Shown one piece after another: positions 14,600-64,000 of a stretch of DNA of 64,000 bases; within the stretch, counting starts at the first letter, position 1, and each line of letters starts with the position of its first letter. The stretch comes from Cladochytrium replicatum. Taxonomy: Eukaryota; Chytridiomycota; Chytridiomycetes; Cladochytriales; Cladochytriaceae. Both the position numbers and the translations under genes were made by a program. The stretch spans positions 239,533 to 303,532 of the forward strand of contig JAHLKD010000071.1 in the NCBI GenBank assembly GCA_025526935.1, read 5' to 3'. Below the pieces are notes generated by a model. The model was given only the letters and a program-made list of their open reading frames with translations, had not been told where the DNA came from and made no database searches.

Positions 14600-17500
14600 C
14601 CCTCCTCGTGGACGTGGAAATGGTTCCACCCGCGGTAAGAATATGAAACCTGCACCGCTGATCTGTTATCCTTGTGGCCAGTATGGACACGTCTCTAGGG
14701 TGTGCACGACCTCCAATGCGGAAGCCCAAGCCTTCAAGGCCCAGAACCCACAACCTAACTAGCAGAACAAACAAGACTCTTATGGCCCTCGCCGTCGCGC
14801 AGTAACTAGCAATTACAAACCCATACCTTCACAACAATACTTTATGTTTTCTCATACTGATTCCGATATTCCCTACCCATCAGATCAAATGTCCCAGAAG
14901 ACTGAAGAAGTTGTTGACAACGAGTACTACGAAGAGGAAGAATGTAATGACCAGGACTATGAATATTACTGCAATTACAACTATGACCACAACGACTATG
15001 ATGAGGAACCACCGGCTGCAGGGATGTAAAAATGCTCAACTTTGCTAACATTACTGTAGGAAAAGACAACCATGAAGATTCACCCCCAATCGTTGACTTC
15101 ACCGACAGCGAATCAACTGTCCCCTGCCTTATTGACAACTGTGCTCGAGTTACTGTCCTACGACACCGTGAATTCTTCCTGACTCTGGAAAATTGTCCAG
15201 ATCTCCAATGGGTTACAACAATCAAAAGGAAACGTGAAGTATTTGGTATTGGAGTTGGTAGCGCCCGAGTTTTAATGGAAAATGGAACTGTACTTAATAT
15301 TACCCTTGCTGTTCTCGCTCCAGAAGCCACAGAGAATGTCATACCTGTCAATGTCCTCCACGACAACAACTTGGAAAGTTTTGCTGCATTATCCCGACTA
15401 ACTTACATTACAGATGAACTGACAGTTGAAGTGCTTGACTGTCACCATGACCTCAGCCTCCCATTTGCACGAAATCACCCAGCTCAACTTTCAGCCAATA
15501 TGATTGCGATGACGGATCTCTATGGCCGCAAAATTACACCACCAACCACAATAAAAGACCGTTCCACCGCCTACAAACGATATCATTCTCGACTTGGGCA
15601 TCAGAGCTCAGATTCCATGAAACTCTTGATCAGACACCAATCTGACATCCCATCCTCCATTGCAGACATTGATGAAGAAATCTGTCAACCATGTGCACAA
15701 GGAAAATTCAAGACAGCCCCCTTCGACATTAAAGACAAGTCAACCAACCGACGATTTGGCTAAATGTTACACTCTGACCGTGCCGGACCAATCTACCCAC
15801 CAGCTGTTGGCCGATATACTGGATTTCAGCTGACAATCTATACCAAATCACGTTTGATGAAAGTTACACCATCTGAATCCACTGACCAGTTCCTTGCCAT
15901 TGCAGTTCAACAGATTCATTCCCACAACATCCAGCACCCGGACAACCCAATCACAGTGATACGATTCGACAATAACCAGAACAGTGCTGCATTTGAAAAC
16001 TCTGTCAAGCAAGAGGGATTACTATCGAGCCTGTTCCCTACATACCTCAGATGAATGGCATCGCTGAACGAGGAATTGACATCATCGTCACAATAAACCA
16101 AACCTTCCTTATAGGCTGCAACCTCCCGCAAAATTACTGGCACCTTGCATTCGAACAAGCCTGCGACATCAAGAACCACCTACCTCACTCATCCCTGGAC
16201 TATGCAATCCCTGCAGAAGTAGAATCTGGTTTACCAACCTCAATTAATCATTTTAGGATATTTGGCTGCACTGTCTGGGTTCCTGTACCACCTCCAGCTC
16301 GAATAAAAACCTTCTCAGTTCTCTCATAAGCCATCTACATCGGAGCGAATATAGCAAAACTTATCAAGGCCCTCGGCCCATATACAGGCTATGTGTTCAC
16401 CACTCGCTTTGCTGATTGTGTTTTTGACGAATCTTCTTTCCCACAACTACATCCCTATATAAGACCACAACTACCATCATCTTCACCTCTGACAGTATTC
16501 CCAATCGATAACTGGCCCACTCAGATCCCATTCCCTCACCGGAACCCAGCAAACCGCGAATCTCTCACTCACCGTGCAATTGCTGCGGCTGAACCTGGTG
16601 CCAGAGGGTCTGTTTTCCACCACCACAGTGGTGTCCCAATTGTCATTGTCACTTTCAGGTTGCACATGAGATTTTTTGGCCTATTAATATGATAGGTCTT
16701 TTTGCGTTTTTTGTTGATGTGGCGAGTGGTGATGGAGGAGTGTTTTGTTTGCGGGTTGTTGGGGTGGTTGGTTGGGTTGTTGTTGAAGGTGTTTAGGCTG
16801 ACAAACTGGTGGTTTCGAACAGGAGGGACGTTTGCTGGCATTGGTGTACTGTCTGGTGGTGCATCTGATGTTGATTTACTGGGACGTTGTTGTTTTCGTG
16901 ATGAGGGTGCCCGAATGATTGTGTGGTAGTGGATAATGCCGGCGCCACCGTGGGAGTGGGTAACGCCTCAAATTGTGAAAGTCACAGTGCTCAAACTGGT
17001 ATGTAAGCAGCATCTCGATGGAGTTGTGGAGTTGGGAAAACGTTCATTGGTAAATCATGTTCAAAGGCCCTCCGTCTCGCTTTCTGACAGTTGTTTGCTT
17101 GCTAGGTCCTAACTCTTTGTAGTGTATGTTTGGAAGTCCGGCATATCGCTCGAGAGCTGGATTCGATGCTTTTCTCTATCTTTATTAGTCCAATATTTTT
17201 TTTAACATCTTTCAAATCCCAAATCCCAATCACTCACTATCTACTTACTACATTCAGGGACTTGATCAACTAAACCTCGAATCAAACTTGTTCTCAAACC
17301 TCCTACCAACAACGAGGTCCTCTTCAGTAACATCACCGTCACCGGTTCACTTGTAGACAATGCATTTGCTTTGACCACGTACAAAACCATCATGGCTACA
17401 GACAACACTTCAACAAACTCCAAATCAAAGAAGCAACAACCTTCCAACTCACAATATCAACCAGACCCCATCACGCTGGAAAAAGCCAAAGCCTCACCTG

Positions 17501-28770: not shown

Positions 28771-29067
28771 TGCTTTGGACGAGCAGAATCGGGATCAGGG
28801 ATGGTGGAGCGGTGATATGTGATGAAAATTAATATGATGGCACGGACGATGAGTCGAGCCGGATACAACCATTTGAAAGGCACTCGGACAAGATCATGAG
28901 GTTGTGGGGGTTTATTAACGATAAGAACCAAGAATTTAAATGCATCGGTGGAGGATACAAGAAGAATATAAACGGATACTGTCCAAGTCACAGGTGCGAG
29001 TCCCTTCTGATGACAATACGGGTGTCTCTATTTTTTTCACTTTTCCACGCTTTGACATCCCAAAACC

Positions 29068-29907
29068 ATGGCGTTCTCAACAAAAATTCCCGTAGAAATC
29101 GTCGATGGCATCCTGATTCTGCTCGGCACTTGGGCAGACGATCCAACCCTAGCATTCAGAGTCGCAATGGCTCTGGACAGAAAACGTGTCCAGGCTCAAC
29201 TCATACACAAGTTCACCACCATGGACAATGCGAGCGGTAACGCATACGTCGAGGCTCTCGACCTATTCCTGCAATCTCCCCATCAGCCAACTTACTCGCA
29301 CAAAGCGATCGATACCGCGTGCAGAAACGGTCACGTAGAGGCTCTTGATTGGTGGAAGTCTAGCGAATTAGAGCTGCTTTGGAGCATCGATGCGATGGAT
29401 GGAGCTAGCTCGAATGGGCATTTAGAGGTTCTTGATTGGTGGAGAGAGAGTGGACTGGAAATGAGGTGGAGTGAAATTGCGATGGACATGGCGAGCGGGG
29501 CTGGACGATTGGATGTTCTTGACTGGTGGAAGGAAAGCGGACTTGATTTAAAATATAGTTCCGTGACGATGGACGATGCTAGCTTGGAAGGAAACTTGGA
29601 AGTGTTGAATTGGTGGAGGTCTAGTGGTCTGACACTAAAATATACTTCAGAAGCATTGGACGGAGCGAGTAGGAATGAAGAATTGAAGGTGCTTGATTGG
29701 TGGAAGTTGAGCGGACTGGCACTGAAATGGACTTGTGATGCTATGGACGTTGCGAGCGAGAACGGTGATCTTGAAATACTGGATTGGTGGAAAGACAGCG
29801 GGTTGCAATTGAAATGGAGCTCTGATACGGTTGAGATTGCGCGATCAAATCGCAAGTGGAAAGTGCTCGATTGGTGGAGACAGAGTGGGCTTCTCGAGCG
29901 ACTTTAG
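29068..29907 (+). CDS. F-box-like protein with 'DWWK' ankyrin-type repeats
   Basis: An intronless 279-aa frame starts at a good context (AAAACCATGG). Residues 1-50 form an F-box-like start (IPVEIVDGILILLGTW, then RVQAQLIHKFTTMD). From about residue 90, six to seven tandem repeats of ~33 residues follow, each built around 'G.LEVLDWW..SGLE.KWS..AMD.AS'. Spacing and the AS..G.LEVL core match ankyrin-like repeats, with an unusual invariant DWW in place of the usual loop. F-box proteins recruit substrates to SCF ubiquitin ligases, so this is plausibly a substrate receptor, by inference. It is the only intact member of a local family that includes the relics at 27600, 29979, 31170, 34285 and 34440. 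Confidence 0.7.
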   Translation: MAFSTKIPVEIVDGILILLGTWADDPTLAFRVAMALDRKRVQAQLIHKFTTMDNASGNAYVEALDLFLQSPHQPTYSHKAIDTACRNGHVEALDWWKSSELELLWSIDAMDGASSNGHLEVLDWWRESGLEMRWSEIAMDMASGAGRLDVLDWWKESGLDLKYSSVTMDDASLEGNLEVLNWWRSSGLTLKYTSEALDGASRNEELKVLDWWKLSGLALKWTCDAMDVASENGDLEILDWWKDSGLQLKWSSDTVEIARSNRKWKVLDWWRQSGLLERL

Positions 29908-29978
29908 TGATCCCCAAGACCCTCAAAGACCCTTGTTTTTTGTTTGCTAGTGTCTGAACGCAGTTCAACGTCACGGAG

Positions 29979-31340
29979 ATGGCAGCGTTTCTTCTCAGCG
30001 AAATCATCGACCAGATCCTGATCTTCCTCGGCACTGGAGAGCCTGTCCTCGCCTGCAGAGCCGCTACTTCTCTGAGAAGACGCCGTGTTCAAGCGCAATT
30101 TCTCCACCGCGTCACATCCATGGACGACGCTAGTAGGCGGGGTTCGTCGAAGTCCTCGACCTCATCCTTCACAACTCCAAAAACCTGGTCTACACAAAAG
30201 ACGCGCTCGCATATGCGTGCATGTACGGGCACAGCTCCGTTCTCAACTGGTGGAAATCGAGCGAACTTGCTTTGAAATACTCCGGCGCAGCCATGGACAT
30301 GGCCGGCAAAATGGGTCACATAAACATTCTTGACTGGTGGAAAGCGACGGGCGGTTTGCAGCTCGAGTTTACTCGAAGCGCGCTGATGAACTACGCGAGC
30401 ATGCACGGGCAGGTCGATGTGCTCGAGTGGTGGAAGTCAAGTGGCCTGCAGATCCATTGGGACGAGAATGCGATGGGCGATGCGAGCAGGAACGGCCATT
30501 TGAACGTTCTGGAGTGGTGGAAGTGCAGCGGGTTGGAACTCAAATGGGACGCATTTGCGATGAATTCTGTTGGCTGGACCGGGAGTGTGCTCGAGCGGTG
30601 GAAATCGAGTGGACTGGAGATGAAGTGGACTGAGGTGGCGATGGACGAGGCCAGCGGGCACGGCAATCTGCATGTGCTCGATTGGTGGAAAGCGAGCGGT
30701 CTGAGCTCAATGGAGCACTAACGCAATGCACTCTGCGAGCGAGAATGGTCGGCTGGAAGTGCTGGAGTGGTGGAGATCCAGCGGGCTGGAGATGAAGTAC
30801 TCTTCGCACGCGATGGACTTTGCAAGCTAGAGTGGTCATTTTAATGTTCTTGGTTGGTGGAAACGCAGTGGATTGGAGCACGAGTGGACCGAGTATGCCA
30901 TGGACTCTTCTAGCTCGAACGGACGAATATACGTGCTCGATTGGTGGAAGTCGAGTGGACTGGAGATGAAATACAGCGCAAAGGCTTTGCCCTTTACTAT
31001 CTGAACGTGGACGCACGCTCGAATGTTCTCAACTGGTGGAAATCAAATGGAATTGAGATAGACTTGAGCGATGAGTTGCCTGCGTCGGTTGGATTCTGCG
31101 GCTTCAGCTCCAGCAATAGACGTATCTGAGATGATCCAAGTATCAAAACCATATATCAGATCAGAAAAGAGATGAAATGGAAGGCTCACGCATTCGACTT
31201 TGCGAGCAGCAATGGCCAAACAGATGTCTTGGGTTGGTGGAACCGGAGCGGATTAGATCTCAAGCGGAGCAGGTGTGCTTTGGACTTTCTAGCATGAACG
31301 GGTGGAGCGACGGGTGGAATCGAGTGGGATAGAGTTGATG
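29979..31340 (+). pseudogene. F-box/'DWWK' repeat paralogue, frameshifted
   Basis: An N-terminus like that of the neighbouring gene (LLSEIIDQILIFLGTGEPVL at 29988, then RVQAQFLHRVTSMDDAS) loses its frame at about 30139, in 'aggcggggttcg', through a one-base deletion. The repeat region is then open in the next frame to a TAA at 30719-30721 (with HINILDWWKATGG and HLNVLEWWKCSGLELKW). It continues after stops and shifts to 31130 (LEVLEWWRSSGLEMKYSS, IYVLDWWKSSGLEMKYSA), and a last block lies at 31160-31300 (TDVLGWWNRSGLDL). The gene would have been longer than its intact neighbour, with about a dozen repeats. Confidence 0.8.
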
Positions 31341-32642: not shown

Positions 32643-33869
32643 TCACAGGAAAGCGCATTTCTCCTTGCTGGTGCGGACAAGCTCAGTGAACGCACGTCCC
32701 GGGTTAGGTGACTTGAACGTCTCAAGGCAGCCAACTCCCGTCCCATAATCTGCGTTTCCGCACCTGCCGACGACAACCACATCTGTGCCCTGAGGACCCG
32801 CAAACTCAAGGTTGGTTGGTGCATTCGTGCTCACCAATTTGATCTTTCGCACAAGCTTTCCAGCAGGCGACAGCACCACAACCTCACCGTTCCCGTTCCT
32901 CGTCGCAAACAGGTTCCCCTCCGTGTCGATCCGCATGCCGTCAACGTCGACGTTCTGCGACTTGTCCTCTGCGAAATCGAAAAAGACTTTGCGAGAGGCT
33001 TTGTCTATCGTGCCGTCGGGTTTGATCTTGAACGAGATGATCTTGTTGGACACCGGGTTAAAGTTTTCGTTGACAGCTTCGGAGACGTAGAGGGTCTTGG
33101 AGTCGAGAGAGACCTCGATACCGTTGGTGCGGCCGAGGATGCTGGTCTCGTCAGAGATTTTGGTCGCCTTGCCGTTTTTGTCGCAGAGCCAGACTTCGCC
33201 GTCTGCGGGGACGGTTTTCTCATTGTACGCTGAACAAATAACAACGGAAATCGATTAAAAAGTGACAGAGAAGTAGCAAAGTGATATTTGTTTACCTTGA
33301 CCGCTCAGGTAGAATCTCTTGTTCTTGTAGTCAACCGCAAGATCATTTGGCAAGCCTAAGGAGTTAACAGACATGAGGTCCAAAAAACATCCAGAATCTG
33401 CATCTCTTTAATTTTTACCCTGAAGCATAGCTGGGTCACTGCAAAACACGGAGCGCGTGACAACCGCGTCGTCCCGTACCAACTTCAAAACCCTCTTGTT
33501 CAGCTGATCTGCTGCCAAAAGCACCTGAACTCTCGACTCCTTCTGTCCGTCCTTTTCATTGTCGCAAAGGAACCGGATTCCATTGAACGCAGTCGCCTTG
33601 TCGGCATCCACGAAGAACTTGCGCTGCGCACCGGTTTCGGGGTTGATCCGACCAAGGATGTTTCGTTCCGTGTTTGCGCCAAAGTTGACTGCGTACGCAC
33701 GGCCTGCTGCGTCGACACCGGTGCCTTCGATAAATGTGCCGAATTGGGTGGTGTTGACGTTGACTAGAGCTCGAGGTTTGAAGTAGGAGAAAGTTTCAGG
33801 AGCGGCCAAGGTCGAAGCGGCACACGATAGGAGACAGAGCACGGTTCCAGTACTTGCTACGAAGTGCAT
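32643..33869 (-). CDS. Secreted beta-propeller (SMP-30/gluconolactonase-like), copy 1
   Basis: Three exons (33869-33419, 33355-33296, 33229-32643) join in phase to 365 aa. A signal peptide (MHFVASTGTVLCLLSCAAST) is followed by a six-bladed-propeller-type body: GTGVDAAGRAYAVNFGANT, LAVDYKNKRFYLSGQ, LDSKTLYVSEAV, VDVDGMRIDTEGNLFATRNG and ITLVST-like strands. The final GRCG..DYGTGVGCLETF segment contains cysteines that could form a disulphide. Motifs 'vDGMRiDteGNLfAT' and 'NDLAVDY' are typical of SMP-30/gluconolactonase/LRE-like proteins, which are metal-dependent lactonases or esterases. Substrate is unknown. Its paralogue lies immediately upstream on the same strand with identical intron positions. 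Confidence 0.8.
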
Positions 33870-34284
33870 TTTCGTGAATTATTGATGAGACATCCCACAG
33901 TTCGGATCAAGTCTTGCATTTATAGGTATTGCGATGGCACAAATTTTCAGGGAAGTGTGATGAATGAGGCTGAAGGCTTGGAAAAAAATAAGCTGCGCAG
34001 ATCGGAGATCAAAGGAAGAAGCTGGAAGCTGGGACGTTGAGATCAACCTGGACACTGTTGCGTGGAGGTAGGTAAAACCGTGCGACGATCAGAAAGCACC
34101 ACGCTCTTATCCAAAGCACGCACCGTTTTATTCCCAACTTCTATGCGGAGCACCTGCACCACGACATGCATGAACTTGTGGACAATTCCAAAGTTTCTGT
34201 TAAACTTTGAGCCACAAAGAATTTCAGATTGCACCCGAGAAGATGAGAAGCTGGGCGTGCGTTGTGACCGCGGAATCTAAGGGC

Positions 34285-34440
34285 CTATCTCGGACCATAG
34301 ATGCGCTCGACTGGTGGAAATCGAGCGGACTGGGACGAGGTACAGTAAGGCATTGGCGGTCAACTATCTGGCCTTGGTCGTCCGTGCGACTGCTCGATTG
34401 GTGGAAATCAATTGGGCTGGATAAAACTTTGCATCCGGTT
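34285..34440 (+). pseudogene. 'DWWK' repeat fragment
   Basis: Two eroded repeat units occur on the plus strand: IDALDWWKSSGLG, then RLLDWWKSIGLDK. No surrounding frame is open. It is a dead piece of the family intact at 29068-29907. Confidence 0.6.
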
Positions 34441-34600
34441 GGCGGTATCCGTGGCATACTTGGTCCACTTGAGCTCCAAATCTGTCACTAGCACGCATTG
34501 GTGAAATGCGTCCTTTTGTGTAGACCATGTGCCAACGAGAATCACGATCTGATCGATGATTTCTTTGGGAAGAGCTGCCCTTAAAGTGGTCACGTCCATC
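34440..34600 (-). pseudogene. F-box-like N-terminal fragment of the same family
   Basis: On the minus strand, MDVTTLRAALPKEIIDQIVI is followed by LVGTWSTQKDAF and CVLVTDLELKWTKYATDT. It matches the N-terminal domain of the family (IPVEIVDGILILLGTW) and ends without repeats. It is convergent with the plus-strand repeat fragment, so the locus was inverted or two copies collided. Confidence 0.6.
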
Positions 34601-34772
34601 GCAGCAATCGTGTGCTGTTCTTCTTGATGTAAAATAGTTACACAACGTTACAAGTCAGCGGTTTTAAGATCTACAAGAAGGTTTGGTTGCCAAAAAAGAA
34701 GAAAAGCGTGTTTCAAAAGTGTGCTTGTTCTCCACGCTATAACTGCTACCGCACAGTCATTTTGTGCTCCAT

Positions 34773-35977
34773 TCACAGGAAATCGCAATCGTCCTTGCTG
34801 GTGCGCACGAGCTCGGTGAAAGCGTGTCCCGGGTTGGGCGACTTGAATGTCTCAAAGCAGCCAACTCCAGTTCCAAAATCTGCTTTTCCGCACCTTCCAA
34901 CGACAACGACATCGGTGCCCTGTGGGCCTGCAAACTCGATGTTTGTCGGGAAATTCGTGCTCACGAGCTTGATCTTTCTTGTAATCTTTCCCGCTGGCGA
35001 CAGCACCACGACCTCCCCCCCTCCGTTCCTCGTGACAAACAAGTTGCCCTTCGTGTCGAACCGCATCCCGTCCACGTCGACGTTCTGCGTCTTGTCGTCC
35101 GCGAAATCGAAAAAGACTTTGCGCGACGCCTTGTCGATCGTGCCGTCGGCGTTGAGGGCGAACGAGATGATTTTGTTGGAGACCGGGGCAAAGTTTTCGT
35201 TGACGGCTTCGGAGACGAAGAGGGTCTTGGAGTCTAGAGAGACCTCGATGCCGTTGGTGCGGCCGAGGATGCTGGTTTCGTCGGAGAGTTTGGTGGGTTT
35301 GCCTTCTGCGTCGCAGAGCCAGACTTCGCCGTCCGCTGGGACCGTGTTGTTGTTGAATGCTGTACAGAAATATTGAGAACTGATTGTGAAACAGGAACCA
35401 GAAGGCTCATACCTTGACCGCTCAGGTAGAATCGCTTGTTTGCGTAGTCTACAGCAAGGTCATTGGGGACACCTTCGAAAAAAAAAATCAGCTTCTATCG
35501 CCCGAAATAATGGACTTTGGTGACGTTACCCTGAAGCATGGTGGGGTCCGTGCAAAACACAGAGCGTGTGATGGTGGTATCGTCCCTCACCAACTTGATC
35601 ACCCTCTTGTTCGCCTGATCTGCAGCCAAGAGCACCTGAACCCTCGACTCCCTCTGCGCGTCCTTCACATTGTCGCATAAGAATCTGATCCCGTTGAACG
35701 CAGTCGCGTTGTCCGAGTCCACGAAGAACTCCTTCTGCGCACCTGTGCCGACGTTGATCTTTCCCAGCTTGTTCCTGTCGGTGTTTGCGCCAAAGTTCAC
35801 CGCGAACGCACGCCCTGCGGCGTCGACGGCGGCACCTTCGATGAACGTGCCGAACTCGGTGGAGTTTTCGTTGACAAGAGCACGCGGTTTGAAGAGCGCA
35901 GCTTTGGGAGTCTTTGTGGGAGCTGCTGCGGCCGAGACGGCGCACGAGAGAATGCAGAGAGCGGCCGCGAAGTGCAT
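34773..35977 (-). CDS. Secreted beta-propeller (SMP-30/gluconolactonase-like), copy 2
   Basis: Exons 35977-35530, 35472-35413 and 35359-34773 join in phase to 364 aa. Exons 2 and 3 have exactly the same lengths (60 and 587 nt) as in copy 1, and intron positions match. It has a signal peptide (MHFAAALCILSCAVSAAAAP). The body is highly similar to copy 1: AAVDAAGRAFAVNFGANTD, NDLAVDYANKRFYLSGQ, VDGMRFDTKGNLFVTRNG, and the C-terminal GRCGKADFGTGVGCFETF. Copies 1 and 2 are a direct tandem duplication about 0.9 kb apart, with 'DWWK' relics between them. The longer frame upstream of ATG 35977 lacks a signal peptide and I reject it. Confidence 0.82.
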
Positions 35978-58400: not shown

Positions 58401-61400
58401 ATGGGAAACTCCCAGTCGCAGCAGATTGAATTCTGCAACGTTTGCATCAACCATGCTGGTAACGAGGTTATCGTGACAATCTACGAGGATAAGTCAATTG
58501 CTTATTTGCGGAAGGAGGTAAGAATTCACGGACTTCGAAAGTTCACACTCATGCTTGTTTTTCCAGGTGAAGAACGAGTGCGATTTCGGTGACGCAGAAT
58601 TTGCTCTTTTTGTTTTGTTAGGCGACAATCGCGAGAATCTTGAGAGCGACGAGGATGTCGTTGAGCTGGTGGATGGCCGCTTGCTTGGATCTCGTTCGAA
58701 GGCTCCCACGATTTTCGTTGAGATTGTTGGAGCGGCTACTGCCCTTGTGAATCCGCTAACGCCTCCGAAAACGGATCCCGCCTCTCCAATCGCTGGACAG
58801 GAAACTTTAGCCCAACCTGCAATCCCCCAGTTTCCGACTGGTGAAAGCTTCGACGTCATGCTGTCGTACCAGTAAGCTTGCGAAATTCAAAAACAATCAC
58901 GGCAGCTAACTTTGATTGACAGGTGGGATAGTAAGGACAAGGTTAAATGCATGTACGACGACCTTGTTGCGAGCGGACTGAAGGTGTGGATGGACCTTTA
59001 CCAGATGCACGGCGACATCTACCAACGCATGGCCGAAGGCGTTGTTGCCAGCAGCATTTTTTCTCCTTGCTTGACTCTGGCTTACTCTGTATGTCTTTCA
59101 TCTCTCGGTAAGACATTGCTGACATCTTGTTTAAAAGAAATCCGTAAACTGTCTCGCTGAAATCGAATATGCCCGAGTGCTTCGAAAAGCGATGGTGCCA
59201 AGCTTGCTCTGGAAATCTCCTGTTGATGCGCGTCTTGATCAAACATTTGCTGAACTAAAGAGAGTTGGCCTGATGACTGCGGGCTTGCTGTTTGTTGACT
59301 TTTCAGACGTGGAGCCTGATCACCCAAATTGGGCTGATCGTGTATCAAATCTTAAAATCCAGATTGGCAAACGACTTTTGGAATTGAACTCCTTGGCTGT
59401 GAATCCTGCATTACCAGACACAGATCAGTTGCAATCACCCTTGCCTATACCTCAGCTGTCTTCTAAGCCTGATATCCTCAGAGAATGGCTCAAACCAGTT
59501 GATATTGGATCTGACATCAACTCATACGCTGAATCCTATGCAAGTGGAACACGCCACTGGCTACTGGAGAAGATCAACACTTGGATTGATGACCCTGAAG
59601 CCAGTCAAGTTATGTGGCTCCGAGGTGGAGCAGGAGTTGGGAAATCAATCATGGCATGGTTTGTGGGAGCCTACTTTAGTCGTAGGCTACCAAAACAAGC
59701 AGACCAATCTTTGGAGATAAACCCACCAATTGATACATTTCTTGGTGCTCAGTTTTTCTGCAAGTTTAATGATAGCTCAAAAAATGATCCTCATCGTGTA
59801 ATTGAGTCAATTGCATATCAACTCAGTCGGTTTGATACACAAATTTTCACCTTCCTAAAGAACCTCTGTGAGCAAGATAAGAGTTCCAAACTTTCACTGT
59901 TAGACCAAGATGTGCTAATCAAATTTGACAAACTCATACTTCAGCCCCTGCAATACTATTCTGCGCAAAATGAAGCCAGTGAGAAGATCGTGATCATTTT
60001 GGATGCACTTGATGAATGTGGAGACACTGGTACAAAAAGCCGGAAGAGATTATTGTCAGCTCTTGCAAACTCCACAAACAAGACTCCAAAGAATGTGAAG
60101 CTTCTCGTCACTGGAAGGCCAGAGCCTGATGTCTACTCTATGCTCCATGATATCAACTGCACACAGCTCCGCCCAACAGATAAGAACAACTTGAAGGACA
60201 TCAAAATTTATGCACACGAGCGTCTGAAAATCTATCTTGGAAAGAATAAAAAGCTGCTTGATGAAGCAGTTGACTATCTCAGTGCTGCAGCAGAAGGGGT
60301 TTTTGTATGGATGAGGCTGGTGTGTGACCTGATCAGATCAGAATCTCCACAAACTGAAGATGAAACCATGTCTATCATATCAGCACAGGGCAGAGGTGTT
60401 GACTCAAAGTATCACCAACTCTTGGAAAATGCTCTCCAAAATACTGGAGGATCAGCTGAGAATTTCAGAACAGTGTTTGGAGTTCTCTGTGTCGTCAGAG
60501 TACCTGTTTCTTTAAGTGTTCTGGCAGAGCTTCTCAATATGGAAGAGACCCTTGTATCAGCTGAACTACTGCGCTATAGGTTTTTGCTTGAGATTATGTC
60601 AAGTGGAGAAATCAAGTTCATGCACAAGAGTGTCAGGGACTTCTTGACCAATTCAAGCCGTTGCAGTGATTCTAGGTTTTCAATTGATTTATCAATTTAT
60701 GAGACATTAATTCTTGACAGATGCTTGGATATCATGATGTCAGGTCTTATTGCAAACATTGGTGACTTGAGCTCAATAACAATCTATGATAAAATACCTC
60801 CCTCTGCACTGCAAAAGATTCCCCAAACTCTCATATATTGCTGTCTTTACTGGATTGAGCATTTTGTTTGGGTTTCTGACGGTTCTGAAATTTCATCAGA
60901 TGGATTACGTAAAATATACAGCTTTTGCAAAGAACATCTTCTTTCTTGGGCCGAGGTTATGATTATCAATCAGGCTATTCAGACTATGATTGGGGAATTA
61001 GAGAAAATTTCTTCTAAAATTCCAATAGCAGAAAACATGCCAGATGACATCAGTATCATAACTTTACCAGAAGAAAGTGGGGCAGATACAAGTATTCCAA
61101 TTTCAAGAGCAACAGCAATAAATTTCATTCAAAACATTTCAGTAGATCTTGCAAGAGTTCTCGAGTACAATCTGGTTCCAATCTCAAAGTGTCCACTTCA
61201 GCTTTACTGCACGGGATTGGCTTTCTGTCCCACCAGAACTGAGCTATGGAAAACATACAAGGATGTTCTTAATGGACCATTCTCTTCAGTGAAATTCACT
61301 ATTGGCAGAGAACTCTCTTGGAGTCCACAACTCTGGACTCATCAACTTTCTGATTATTGCCACTCGGTGATATACTCTCCAGATGGAACCATGATTGCAG

Positions 61401-62569
61401 CAGCAGCAGGAAATGACATAATCATACTCGATGTGCAGTTCCATAGTGTATTGATCAAGCTCAAGGGTCACAGTAAATGGGTGAAATCAGTAGCATGGTC
61501 ACATGATGGAACAAAGATTGTGTCAGGATCAAGAGACAGTACAGTGAGAGTGTGGTCAGCGACAACAGGAGAGCAGCTGATGAAACTTGAGGGTCACATT
61601 TCTTCAGTTAATTCAGTAGCATGGTCATATGGACCAAGGATTCTGTCAGGATCACATGACAGAATGGTGATGGTTTGGTCAGCAACAACAGGAGAGCAGC
61701 TGATGAAGCTGGAGGGTCACAGTTCTTCAGTTAAGTCAGTTGCATGGTCACATGATGGGACAAAGATTGTGTCAGGGTCATATGATAGAACAGTAAGAGT
61801 GTGGTCAGCAACAACAGGAGAGCAGCTGATGAAGCTCGAGGGTCACAGTTCATCAGTTAATTCAGTAGCATGGTCACATGATGGTACAAAGATTGTGTCA
61901 GGATCAGGATCAGGTTACGATAGACCAAATGACAGTACAGTGAGGGTGTGGTCAGCGATAACAGGAGAGCAGCTGAGAAAGCTTGATGGTCACGTTGATG
62001 AAGTGCTTTCAGTGGCATTGTCTCGTGATGGGATAAAGATTGTGTCAGGATCATATGACAGAACAGTGAGGGTGTGGTCAACAACAACAGGAGAGCAGCT
62101 GATGAGGCTCGAGGGTCACAGTGATGAAGTGCTTTCAGTAGCACTGTCTCGTGATGGGACAAAGATTGTGTCAGGATCATACGACAGAACAGTGAGGGTG
62201 TGGTCAGCAACAACAGGAGCGCAGCTGATGAAGGTTGAGGGTCACATTTCTTCACTTAATTCAGTAGCATGGTCACATAATAGTACAACTATTATGTCAG
62301 GATCAGGTTCCGATAGACTAAATGATAGTAAAGTGAGAATGTGGTCAGCAACAACAGGAGGGCAGCTCATGAAGCTTAAGGGTCACAGTTCTTTGGTTCT
62401 TTCAGTAGCATGGTCAAATGATGGGACAAAGGTTATGTCTGAATCATATAGAGATCTATTTATTTGGTCAGCAGTTACTGGACAGAAACTTGATGGAGAG
62501 ATTCTATCAGACTGGGATCACAGAGATGAAAATGACAATCTATTGTTTCAAGTTGAGTCAGATGGATAG
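58401..62569 (+). CDS. TIR-NACHT-WD40 STAND receptor (NLR-like)
   Basis: Exons 58401-58517, 58567-58871, 58923-59088 and 59138-62569 join in phase to 1339 aa. The start MGNSQSQQ fits N-myristoylation (Gly2, Ser6). Residues about 10-95 look like a ubiquitin-fold domain (EVIVTIYEDKSIAYLRKE). A TIR domain follows (about 134-260): FDVMLSYQWDSKDKV, LKVWMDLYQMHGDIYQRMAE, and YSKSVNCLAEIEYA with the candidate catalytic Glu. Then comes a NACHT ATPase with P-loop GGAGVGKS (about 359-366), Walker B IVIILDALDEC (about 480-490) and VKLLVTGRPEPD. A helical region (about 600-950) leads to WD40 repeats (about 935-1320): one degenerate blade plus eight 'GHSSSVNSVAWSHDGTKIVS'-type units. STAND proteins of this design oligomerise on ligand binding and trigger their effector domain; TIR domains often cleave NAD+. 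Here it is probably a defence or allorecognition receptor, by inference. No inactivating change is seen. It lies about 1.3 kb from the telomere. Confidence 0.93.
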
Positions 62570-63270
62570 GCAGTTTTGGGCAATCACAAGTTCTGGTTAC
62601 CAGCCGAGATGAGGGGGAAGATTTACAATAATGGTGAGAATGGAGTGTGTGTTGTTCAGGGGTTCAAGATTTATTGTTTCTTAAAGTGAAAATATACTCA
62701 GTTTCCAGAGAGCTAACCCCCTTCAGCAAGTACAAGCAGCGACACCACCGGCTAATACAGCAACCAGCTCAAACAATCGAGGTCAATCCTAGGGTCCCCA
62801 ACTGCTCCCACCTTCGATTAACATGGATGAATGAATATTGATTGATTCTCCTTTGAGCCTAAAGTGACAGGCTTTTCATTTTGTGCTCAAATTATAGTGA
62901 ATACATGTAGTTGCGAATTTTAAAATCAATTTTCTAATTGGTAGGTGTAATTAATAGACATTTTAACGGATTTTCCTTGGGTTGTCCAACAGATTTCTAA
63001 TTGGCGCGTCAACTCTCCTTTCGGTGTCTGCACCAGCCCTGAGAAACCCCTCTCTGGATGGGCGAGCCACAGACAGCAGCCAGTGCACTCCTGCCGAGAA
63101 AGCAACATGATAAAAAATGAGAAATAAAACAAAAAAACGACGAGAAGAAACAACACCGTAGCAAAGGGTAGAGATAAAAAACAGGAACAAACACGCTTAT
63201 TCAGGTGAACATCACCATAAAGAATAATTTCCCAGTAAAGAATAAAGAACATTCTTCATGATTCCACTTG
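62570..63270. other. Subtelomeric spacer
   Basis: No supported gene. The minus-strand frames at 62926-63252 are hydrophobic (FFVLFLIFYHV-like) but arise from A-rich plus-strand sequence near 63100-63190. Confidence 0.4.
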
Positions 63271-63407
63271 TTAAAACCAGTGATCCCAGATAATGTTTTT
63301 TAAGCTATGTTTGCAATTATAATTTCCCCATAAAGAATAAAGAATATTCTTCATGATTCCACTTTGAAAACATAGCATAAAAACCATGATCTGGGATCAC
63401 TGGTTTG
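63222..63407. repeat. Inverted repeat with internal direct repeats
   Basis: The arm 'aaaccagtgatcccagat' (63275-63292) is repeated inverted as 'atctgggatcactggttt' (about 63390-63407). The homology extends inward ('ttttaagctatgttt' against 'aaacatagcataaaa'). Inside and just left of the arms are two direct copies of 'aaagaataaagaayattc' plus 'ttcatgattccac', one starting near 63235 and one near 63332. The structure could form a long hairpin or be a foldback element. Confidence 0.85.
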
Positions 63408-63451
63408 AACAACAAACATAACATTCATTCCGAGCCACAATGTTAATAACA

Positions 63452-63590
63452 TTCGGACGGACAGTTCCACGCGAATTTATTAGCCACGGACGGATGGTCC
63501 GACGCGCTTTTATCAGGCGCAGACTGACCGTCCAACCCGTTTTATTAACCATAGACAGCCCTTCCAGATGCAATTTATTCTGCTTTGACT
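63452..63590. repeat. ~32-bp imperfect tandem repeat, four units
   Basis: Units of the type 'acggacagttccacgcgaat' plus 'ttattagcc' recur: 'acggacggatggtccgacgc' plus 'gcttttatcaggc', then 'gcagactgaccgtccaaccc' plus 'gttttattaacc', then 'atagacagcccttccagatg' plus 'caatttattctgc'. They are diverged, with conserved 'TTTATT' ends. A short open frame across it follows from the repeat period and is not a gene. Confidence 0.7.
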
Positions 63591-63850
63591 GTCATTCATG
63601 CTACCTCAATCTCTCTTGCAGCTGGTTTTTTCACTAAGTCTTTTCATTTCATGGGCATAGCGATGCTGCTCTAGGGCGAGACTCCTTCCATTTTGTGGGC
63701 TAGAGCATGCTACTGGAGCAGAGAACTGATTCTTCGTATTTGATTGTCCAAAATCTCCACCAACCTTACACCTTCATAACAGGCTTCTCTGCCACTTGGG
63801 GGGATATCCTTTTTAGGAAACTAGAGGGCAAGACCTGGCAACAGGGTCTA

Positions 63851-64000
63851 GGGTTAGTTAGGGTTAGTTAGGGTTAGTTAGGGTTAGGGTTAGTTAGGGT
63901 TAGTTAGGGTTAGTTAGGGTTAGTTAGGGTTAGGGTTAGTTAGGGTTAGTTAGGGTTAGTTAGGGTTAGTTAGGGTTAGTTAGGGTTAGTTAGGGTTAGT
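63851..64000 (+). repeat. Telomere-type array, TTAGTTAGGG with interspersed TTAGGG
   Basis: 150 bases of uninterrupted repeats run to the window end. Counting from GGG, there are about 13 full GGGTTAGTTA units plus a partial, with GGGTTA hexamers at 63881-63886 and 63927-63932. The G-rich strand reads 5' to 3' toward the end, the orientation of a right-hand telomere. The array may continue beyond the window. Confidence 0.9.

Follow-up and report, generated by a model that had tools for sequence, protein, structure and literature searches.

Introduction

Among the described signal transduction ATPases with numerous domains (STAND), or NOD-like receptors (NLRs), those that resemble the gene described here include the HNWD proteins of Podospora anserina (HET-E, HET-D and HET-R), in which an N-terminal HET domain precedes NACHT and WD40 repeats, and the plant TIR-NLRs RPP1, Roq1 and RUN1, which have NB-ARC and leucine-rich repeats. 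TIR domains occur in fungi (PMC7075850), one published survey records no NLRs in chytrids (PMC4986451), and NLR numbers in species of Chytridiomycota begin at one (PMC12258605). We report at least 30 related loci in the chytrid Cladochytrium replicatum, represented by a gene at 58401-62569 (plus strand) of a window of 64,000 nucleotides, the whole stretch of DNA analysed. As read from its sequence, the predicted protein combines PB1/ubiquitin-like, TIR, NACHT and WD40 domains, the WD40 units of the family varying at what appear to be the ligand-facing positions of the HET-E type. We propose that it is probably an intracellular STAND/NLR non-self receptor of the chytrid, which would cleave NAD+ through clustered TIRs of the sort known from plant and animal immunity.

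Results

The window comprises the last 64 kb of contig C71 (239533-303532 of 303532 bases), its end being the contig end, where a telomere array of mixed TTAGGGTTAG and TTAGGG units was found (63849..64000, plus strand). The receptor gene consists of four exons (58401..58517, encoding residues 1-39 and beginning with MGNSQS; 58567..58871; 58923..59088; and 59138..62569, encoding the end of the TIR, the NACHT, a helical arm, the WD40 units and the stop), which join to 1339 codons with no internal stop, and of three introns, all with GT-AG ends (58518..58566, 49 nt, phase 0 after residue 39; 58872..58922, 51 nt, phase 2 at residue 141; 59089..59137, 49 nt, phase 0 after residue 196). A TIR-NACHT search of the organism's own genome (50.5 Mb, 198 contigs) gave 69 matches, fragments included, the best 30 of which were taken as loci L009-L038 with the window gene as L009; the window gene is one member of this repertoire. 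Sixteen of the 30 loci looked intact, having their initial 330 residues free of stops and frame shifts and more than 600 residues open thereafter; 7 of these 16 end beyond the examined DNA, and no clear start methionine was evident in L031. The first-pass annotation had read the locus as a complete TIR-NACHT-WD40 receptor with good introns, encoded by one gene beside a telomere in an early-diverging fungus; the open frame and the Pfam domains above their cut-offs bore this out, but both the large family and the PB1/ubiquitin-like domain ahead of the TIR had been overlooked.

The NPHP3_N/NACHT nucleoside triphosphatase (NTPase) core (59546..60118, plus strand; residues 333-523) scored 102 bits with NPHP3_N (cut-off 24.8) and 30.1 bits with NACHT (cut-off 26.7), and the P-loop and Walker B motif noted at first were both present on direct reading, as GGAGVGKS (Walker A, 59624-59647) and VIILDALDEC (59990-60019) on the plus strand. 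With an N-terminal effector ahead of this core and C-terminal repeats behind it, the protein had the STAND/NLR layout. The TIR domain (58849..59389, plus strand; approximately residues 134-280, split by introns 2 and 3) matched TIR_2 (PF13676) with an E-value of 1.8e-13, its score of 51.5 bits lying above the cut-off (28), in line with the original claim of a full TIR domain. The proteins that its profile matched in the PDB were TIR proteins, several of the best being named NAD(+) hydrolase; SARM1 and the CRISPR-associated Cat1 were also matched by the profile. Two weak PADLOC hits fell on the TIR (E 0.0002 and 0.0066), and the NACHT had none. In the predicted model of a relative that shows 31% identity across 74% of the query, the corresponding segment had a SARM1-like TIR fold; as far as this relative goes, the misgiving that the segment might not be a TIR fold did not come true.

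The codon of E204 (59159..59161, plus strand) lies within the TIR, and this residue was Glu in 29 of the 30 family loci and in all three aligned rows from other organisms, aligning with residue 86 of Roq1, which we take to be catalytic. We thus regard E204, one of two residues initially put forward, as the putative catalytic glutamate. The other, E206, was rejected, being Lys in 14 and Arg in 1 of 22 aligned copies; the 22-row alignment excludes the 8 of 30 loci with models broken by a stop or by at least two frame shifts, and 7 of those 8 keep E204. That E204 is retained while its neighbour is not, as expected of a catalytic residue, and that the best PDB profile matches include several named NAD(+) hydrolases, argue against an otherwise identical receptor whose TIR serves as a non-catalytic scaffold recruiting other TIR proteins, as in MyD88, an arrangement that we consider rather unlikely.

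A protein search with five rows of the family and the Quaeritorhiza homologue P0001 found 218 proteins among 8000 candidates scored, and the best 120 of the 218 were examined. The nine best relatives, from Quaeritorhiza (2), Nowakowskiella (2), Blyttiomyces, Polychytrium, Obelidium, Siphonaria and Dinochytrium, share 26-36% identity with the window protein, and all carry NPHP3_N and TIR_2, the latter listed for four of them and above its cut-off on rescoring of the other five, of which Dinochytrium was lowest (31.8 bits); the suggested search of other chytrids gave these nine proteins of seven named genera. WD40-type families were listed in six of the nine, and not for P0005, P0009 and P0010. 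Zopfochytrium ranked next, with no TIR seen by eye ahead of its NACHT, and the lower fungal-named rows were Dikarya NACHT proteins as far as they were read, except for one glomeromycete and P0116. For both P0116 (Blyttiomyces) and P0002 (a protist entry), TIR_2 was listed but NPHP3_N was not. In a midpoint-rooted NACHT tree of 36 hand-picked rows, 19 chytrid rows were split from 17 Dikarya and glomeromycete rows (100/99), and 16 chytrid TIR-NACHT rows formed one group (100/99) joining the window family with the NACHTs of eight of the nine best relatives, within which the seven rows of the window's own family were a separate group (100/100). A divergent copy on C123 of the same genome lay deeper, a TIR-less NACHT on C2 of this genome grouped with Zopfochytrium, and Dinochytrium was placed outside the group on a long branch.

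At the N-terminus, M1 and G2 were present in 21 of the 22 aligned copies, N3 in 20 and S6 in 21, and the MGNSQS start fits the N-myristoylation pattern, giving a predicted N-myristoylation site. The PB1/ubiquitin-like domain follows at 58431..58734 (plus strand; approximately residues 11-95, split by intron 1). Against a PB1 (PF00564) cut-off of 23.6 bits, P0001 scored 34.6 and the second Quaeritorhiza protein, P0004, scored 20.5, whereas PB1 was unlisted in the Pfam scans of P0009, P0007 and the paralogue L027. A profile of 12 such N-terminal domains matched best the PB1 of Bem1 (E 0.008), which accounted for 2 of the 18 distinct sequences matched up to E 1; the others were ISG15, SUMO, other ubiquitin-like chains, PB1-bearing kinases, NBR1 and two ferredoxins. 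A Crinkler-type N-terminus (E 0.11) was dropped because the homologue has PB1 and because none of the four Crinkler matches in the genome fell at the 30 family loci. PB1 domains oligomerise, and the N-terminal domain could therefore extend an assembly.

The WD40 sensor (61337..62503, plus strand; approximately nine units) comprises 8 Pfam stretches and 8 GH-anchored units, and one further degenerate unit preceding the Pfam stretches was recognized by eye, which agrees with the first estimate of about nine blades. The 16 intact genes contain 136 GH motifs, and statistics were drawn from the 91 units that conform to a 42-residue pattern; one of these, a unit of the window gene, slips out of register towards its end. 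The entropy was 2.8-3.6 bits at positions 4, 5, 7, 23 and 25 and no more than 1.63 elsewhere. When the genes were randomly divided into halves of eight 200 times, selection of five positions on one half gave these same five 199 times, and in the held-out half, whose genes are related to the others and not independent of them, the median ratio of non-synonymous to synonymous differences (pN/pS) was 1.35 (5-95%: 1.20-1.53) at the five positions versus 0.39 at the others. In Podospora, unit codons 7, 9, 25 and 27 are positively selected, 8 and 26 are conserved, and the propeller bears these positions on its ligand face (PMC1805685; also PMC2873952). In the pooled family, the hypervariable positions 5, 7 and 23, 25 likewise flank the conserved V6 and D24, with the pairs 18 apart as in HNWD; we infer an offset of two between the two numberings, and with the offset fixed, the four named positions would all be among the five highest of 42 by chance with a probability of 4.5e-5. 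When 154 units of the other search proteins with at least eight units (Dikarya and unnamed entries combined) were pooled, the same four positions took ranks 1 to 4 and position 4 took rank 13. They ranked 2, 5, 1 and 6 in the Quaeritorhiza pair (16 units) and 2, 3, 1 and 17 in Nowakowskiella JEL0078 (7 units), and the pattern was not seen in the units of Polychytrium or Nowakowskiella JEL0407. The HNWD-like spacing speaks for allorecognition, in which the receptor would keep the mechanism proposed here but, as with HET-E and HET-D, would respond to fusion or contact between conspecific strains and not to parasites; heterokaryon incompatibility is not known in chytrids, however, and we judge this other trigger unlikely.

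The median synonymous difference between genes fell from 0.70 in the TIR and 0.56 in the NACHT to 0.345 in the arm and 0.26 in the WD40 units, being lower in WD40 than in NACHT in 113 of 120 gene pairs, and the nearest WD40 unit lay in the same gene for 33 of the 91 units versus 5.3 by shuffling. These data fit sequence exchange within and between genes. Median ratios of non-synonymous to synonymous substitution (dN/dS) of 0.22 for the TIR (37 of 120 pairs kept, the others saturated), 0.19 for the NACHT (78 of 120) and 0.27 for the N-terminal domain (61 of 120) were obtained, and the TIR and NACHT are under purifying selection. As for location, C63 holds 10 of the 30 loci, C61 holds 9 and C80 holds 3, and all three contigs begin with the same telomere repeat as 63849-64000, which was absent from the other ten contig ends examined. 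The TIR-NACHT match of the window ends 2.7 kb from its contig end, and the other loci lie 17 to 161 kb from the nearest one, so that the window gene is subtelomeric in the strict sense and the others in a loose one. Duplication is common near telomeres, and the 22 of 30 loci on three telomere-starting contigs, together with the 14 of 30 modelled loci that are not intact, would suit a family that expands and decays by birth and death with no present function and little selection on the window copy. The low dN/dS in TIR and NACHT and the confinement of excess non-synonymous change to five WD40 positions make this very unlikely.

The first three exons might also have belonged to a separate gene, as the earlier annotation itself had cautioned. 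In a splice-aware alignment guided by the window protein and allowing any GT-AG pair of 40-140 bases, introns at residues 39 (phase 0), 141 (phase 2) and 196 (phase 0) were all in place in 26 of the 30 loci, L028 having one extra; L017, L024 and L038 were shifted by two or three residues at one intron and the start of L013 was degenerate, the third intron being in place in all 30 loci and the second in 29. Although exon 4 alone is an open frame of 1144 codons, the first exons are kept with the rest and share intron positions and phases across the family, and annotated chytrid proteins hold TIR_2 and NACHT in one chain, so that a separate gene, with the TIR reading a splicing artefact, can be dismissed as extremely improbable.

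Other TIR genes were also observed in this genome. A second TIR-STAND family (C103:115659, C45:257803, C45:314779, C21:101565 and C21:187763) has TIR_2 0.56-0.62 kb upstream of NB-ARC on the same strand, in plant-like order. Of at least 71 genomic TIR_2 matches, a count that does not include the intron-split window TIR, at least 38, for example L003, L004 and L007, had no NPHP3_N or NB-ARC match within 2.5 kb downstream, and some of these look like TIR-only proteins.

Between the gene and the telomere lies a telomere-associated repeat of approximately 405 bases (63443..63848), with similar stretches on many contigs, often near a contig end (C2:924912 of 926711, C63:2871, C66:307726 of 314143) and at least once internally (C3:477074). 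At 63268-63412, an inverted repeat that resembles a small hairpin transposon matches its own opposite strand at 77%. Elsewhere in the window, as judged by eye, open frames with repeated LDWWKxSGL units (29056-30721) perhaps encode a degenerate ankyrin-type repeat protein, a frame at 15005-15763 resembles part of a copia-type retrotransposon, and two similar tandem genes on the minus strand (32643-35459; frames 32643-33254 and 34773-35459) perhaps encode lactonase-like beta-propellers.

Discussion

As a non-self receptor, the protein would bind a non-self or altered-self protein through its WD40 propeller, upon which the NACHT would exchange nucleotide and assemble into a ring; the TIRs thus brought together would use E204 to cleave NAD+ or to convert it into a nucleotide signal, and their activity may stop or kill a cell that has been infected or invaded. 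Through myristoylation and PB1 contacts, the assembly could be positioned and enlarged at a membrane. Renewal of the repertoire would come from gene duplication and loss and from exchange of sequence towards the 3' end of the genes, above all in the WD40 units.

Several points weigh against this proposal. The TIR fold comes from the predicted model of a relative of the spliced window protein, and the modelled domain arrangement does not match the RPP1 resistosome, because this first Foldseek match by E-value (6.7e-12) had TM-scores of only 0.22/0.27 with a root-mean-square deviation of 22. The N-terminal domain of the window protein fell below every Pfam cut-off, and its suggested PB1 identity comes from a homologue and weak profile scores. 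Fourteen of the 30 loci failed to qualify as intact genes. The hypervariable pattern emerges from the pooled family, whose test halves were mutually related, and is unclear when the five canonical units from the window gene are taken in isolation. The synonymous gradient towards the 3' end includes the arm, and because the arm value is also low, exchange is not specific to the WD40 units; codon bias or the all-against-all comparison of units may add to the low synonymous difference.

The presence of at least 30 TIR loci and of mould-like hypervariable WD40 positions suggests a diversified non-self recognition machinery older than Dikarya, which need not have arisen for heterokaryon incompatibility. 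A wider reading, possible but doubtful, is that chytrids hold a large, fast-diversifying repertoire of membrane-anchored PB1-TIR-NACHT-WD40 proteins acting in clustered NAD+-cleaving assemblies; under it, the mode of WD40 diversification, being shared with Dikarya, would therefore predate fungal hyphal fusion, and HET-armed receptors would have arisen later, HET having either taken the place of the TIR or evolved from it.

Comparison with known systems

The nearest likeness is to the TIR-NACHT proteins of seven chytrid genera, with TIR_2 and NPHP3_N in all nine and WD40-type families in six; the Quaeritorhiza relatives differ in the clear PB1 of P0001, the window copy being below the cut-off. 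Since such homologues are in public databases and TIR in NLRs of Chytridiomycota has already been mentioned (PMC9815663), the gene can no longer be called an undescribed system, as first suggested. In the largely open-access literature searched, we found no description of the PB1-bearing architecture, of an extensive TIR-NLR family in chytrids or of WD40 hypervariability in these fungi.

With HNWD, the window protein shares NACHT, WD40 and hypervariable codons of equal spacing with conserved residues between them, but TIR_2 stands where HNWD has HET. A HET domain was looked for and rejected: Pfam gave only TIR_2 on residues 128-284 (up to E 0.5) and no HET on residues 1-127. HET is only a remote relative of TIR (PMC4986451). 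The genome has 19 HET-domain (PF06985) matches, TIR and HET proteins thus coexisting in it. The plant TIR-NLRs likewise have a TIR ahead of a STAND NTPase, whereas the window protein has NACHT/NPHP3_N and WD40, and the whole-chain TM-score of the relative's model against RPP1 was low. SARM1 and Cat1 are alike in the TIR, both matching the profile of the window family and SARM1 also the fold of the relative, while their partner domains and triggers differ from those of the window receptor. What is new here is a variant of an already known kind, a chytrid repertoire of HNWD-like receptors armed with a TIR.
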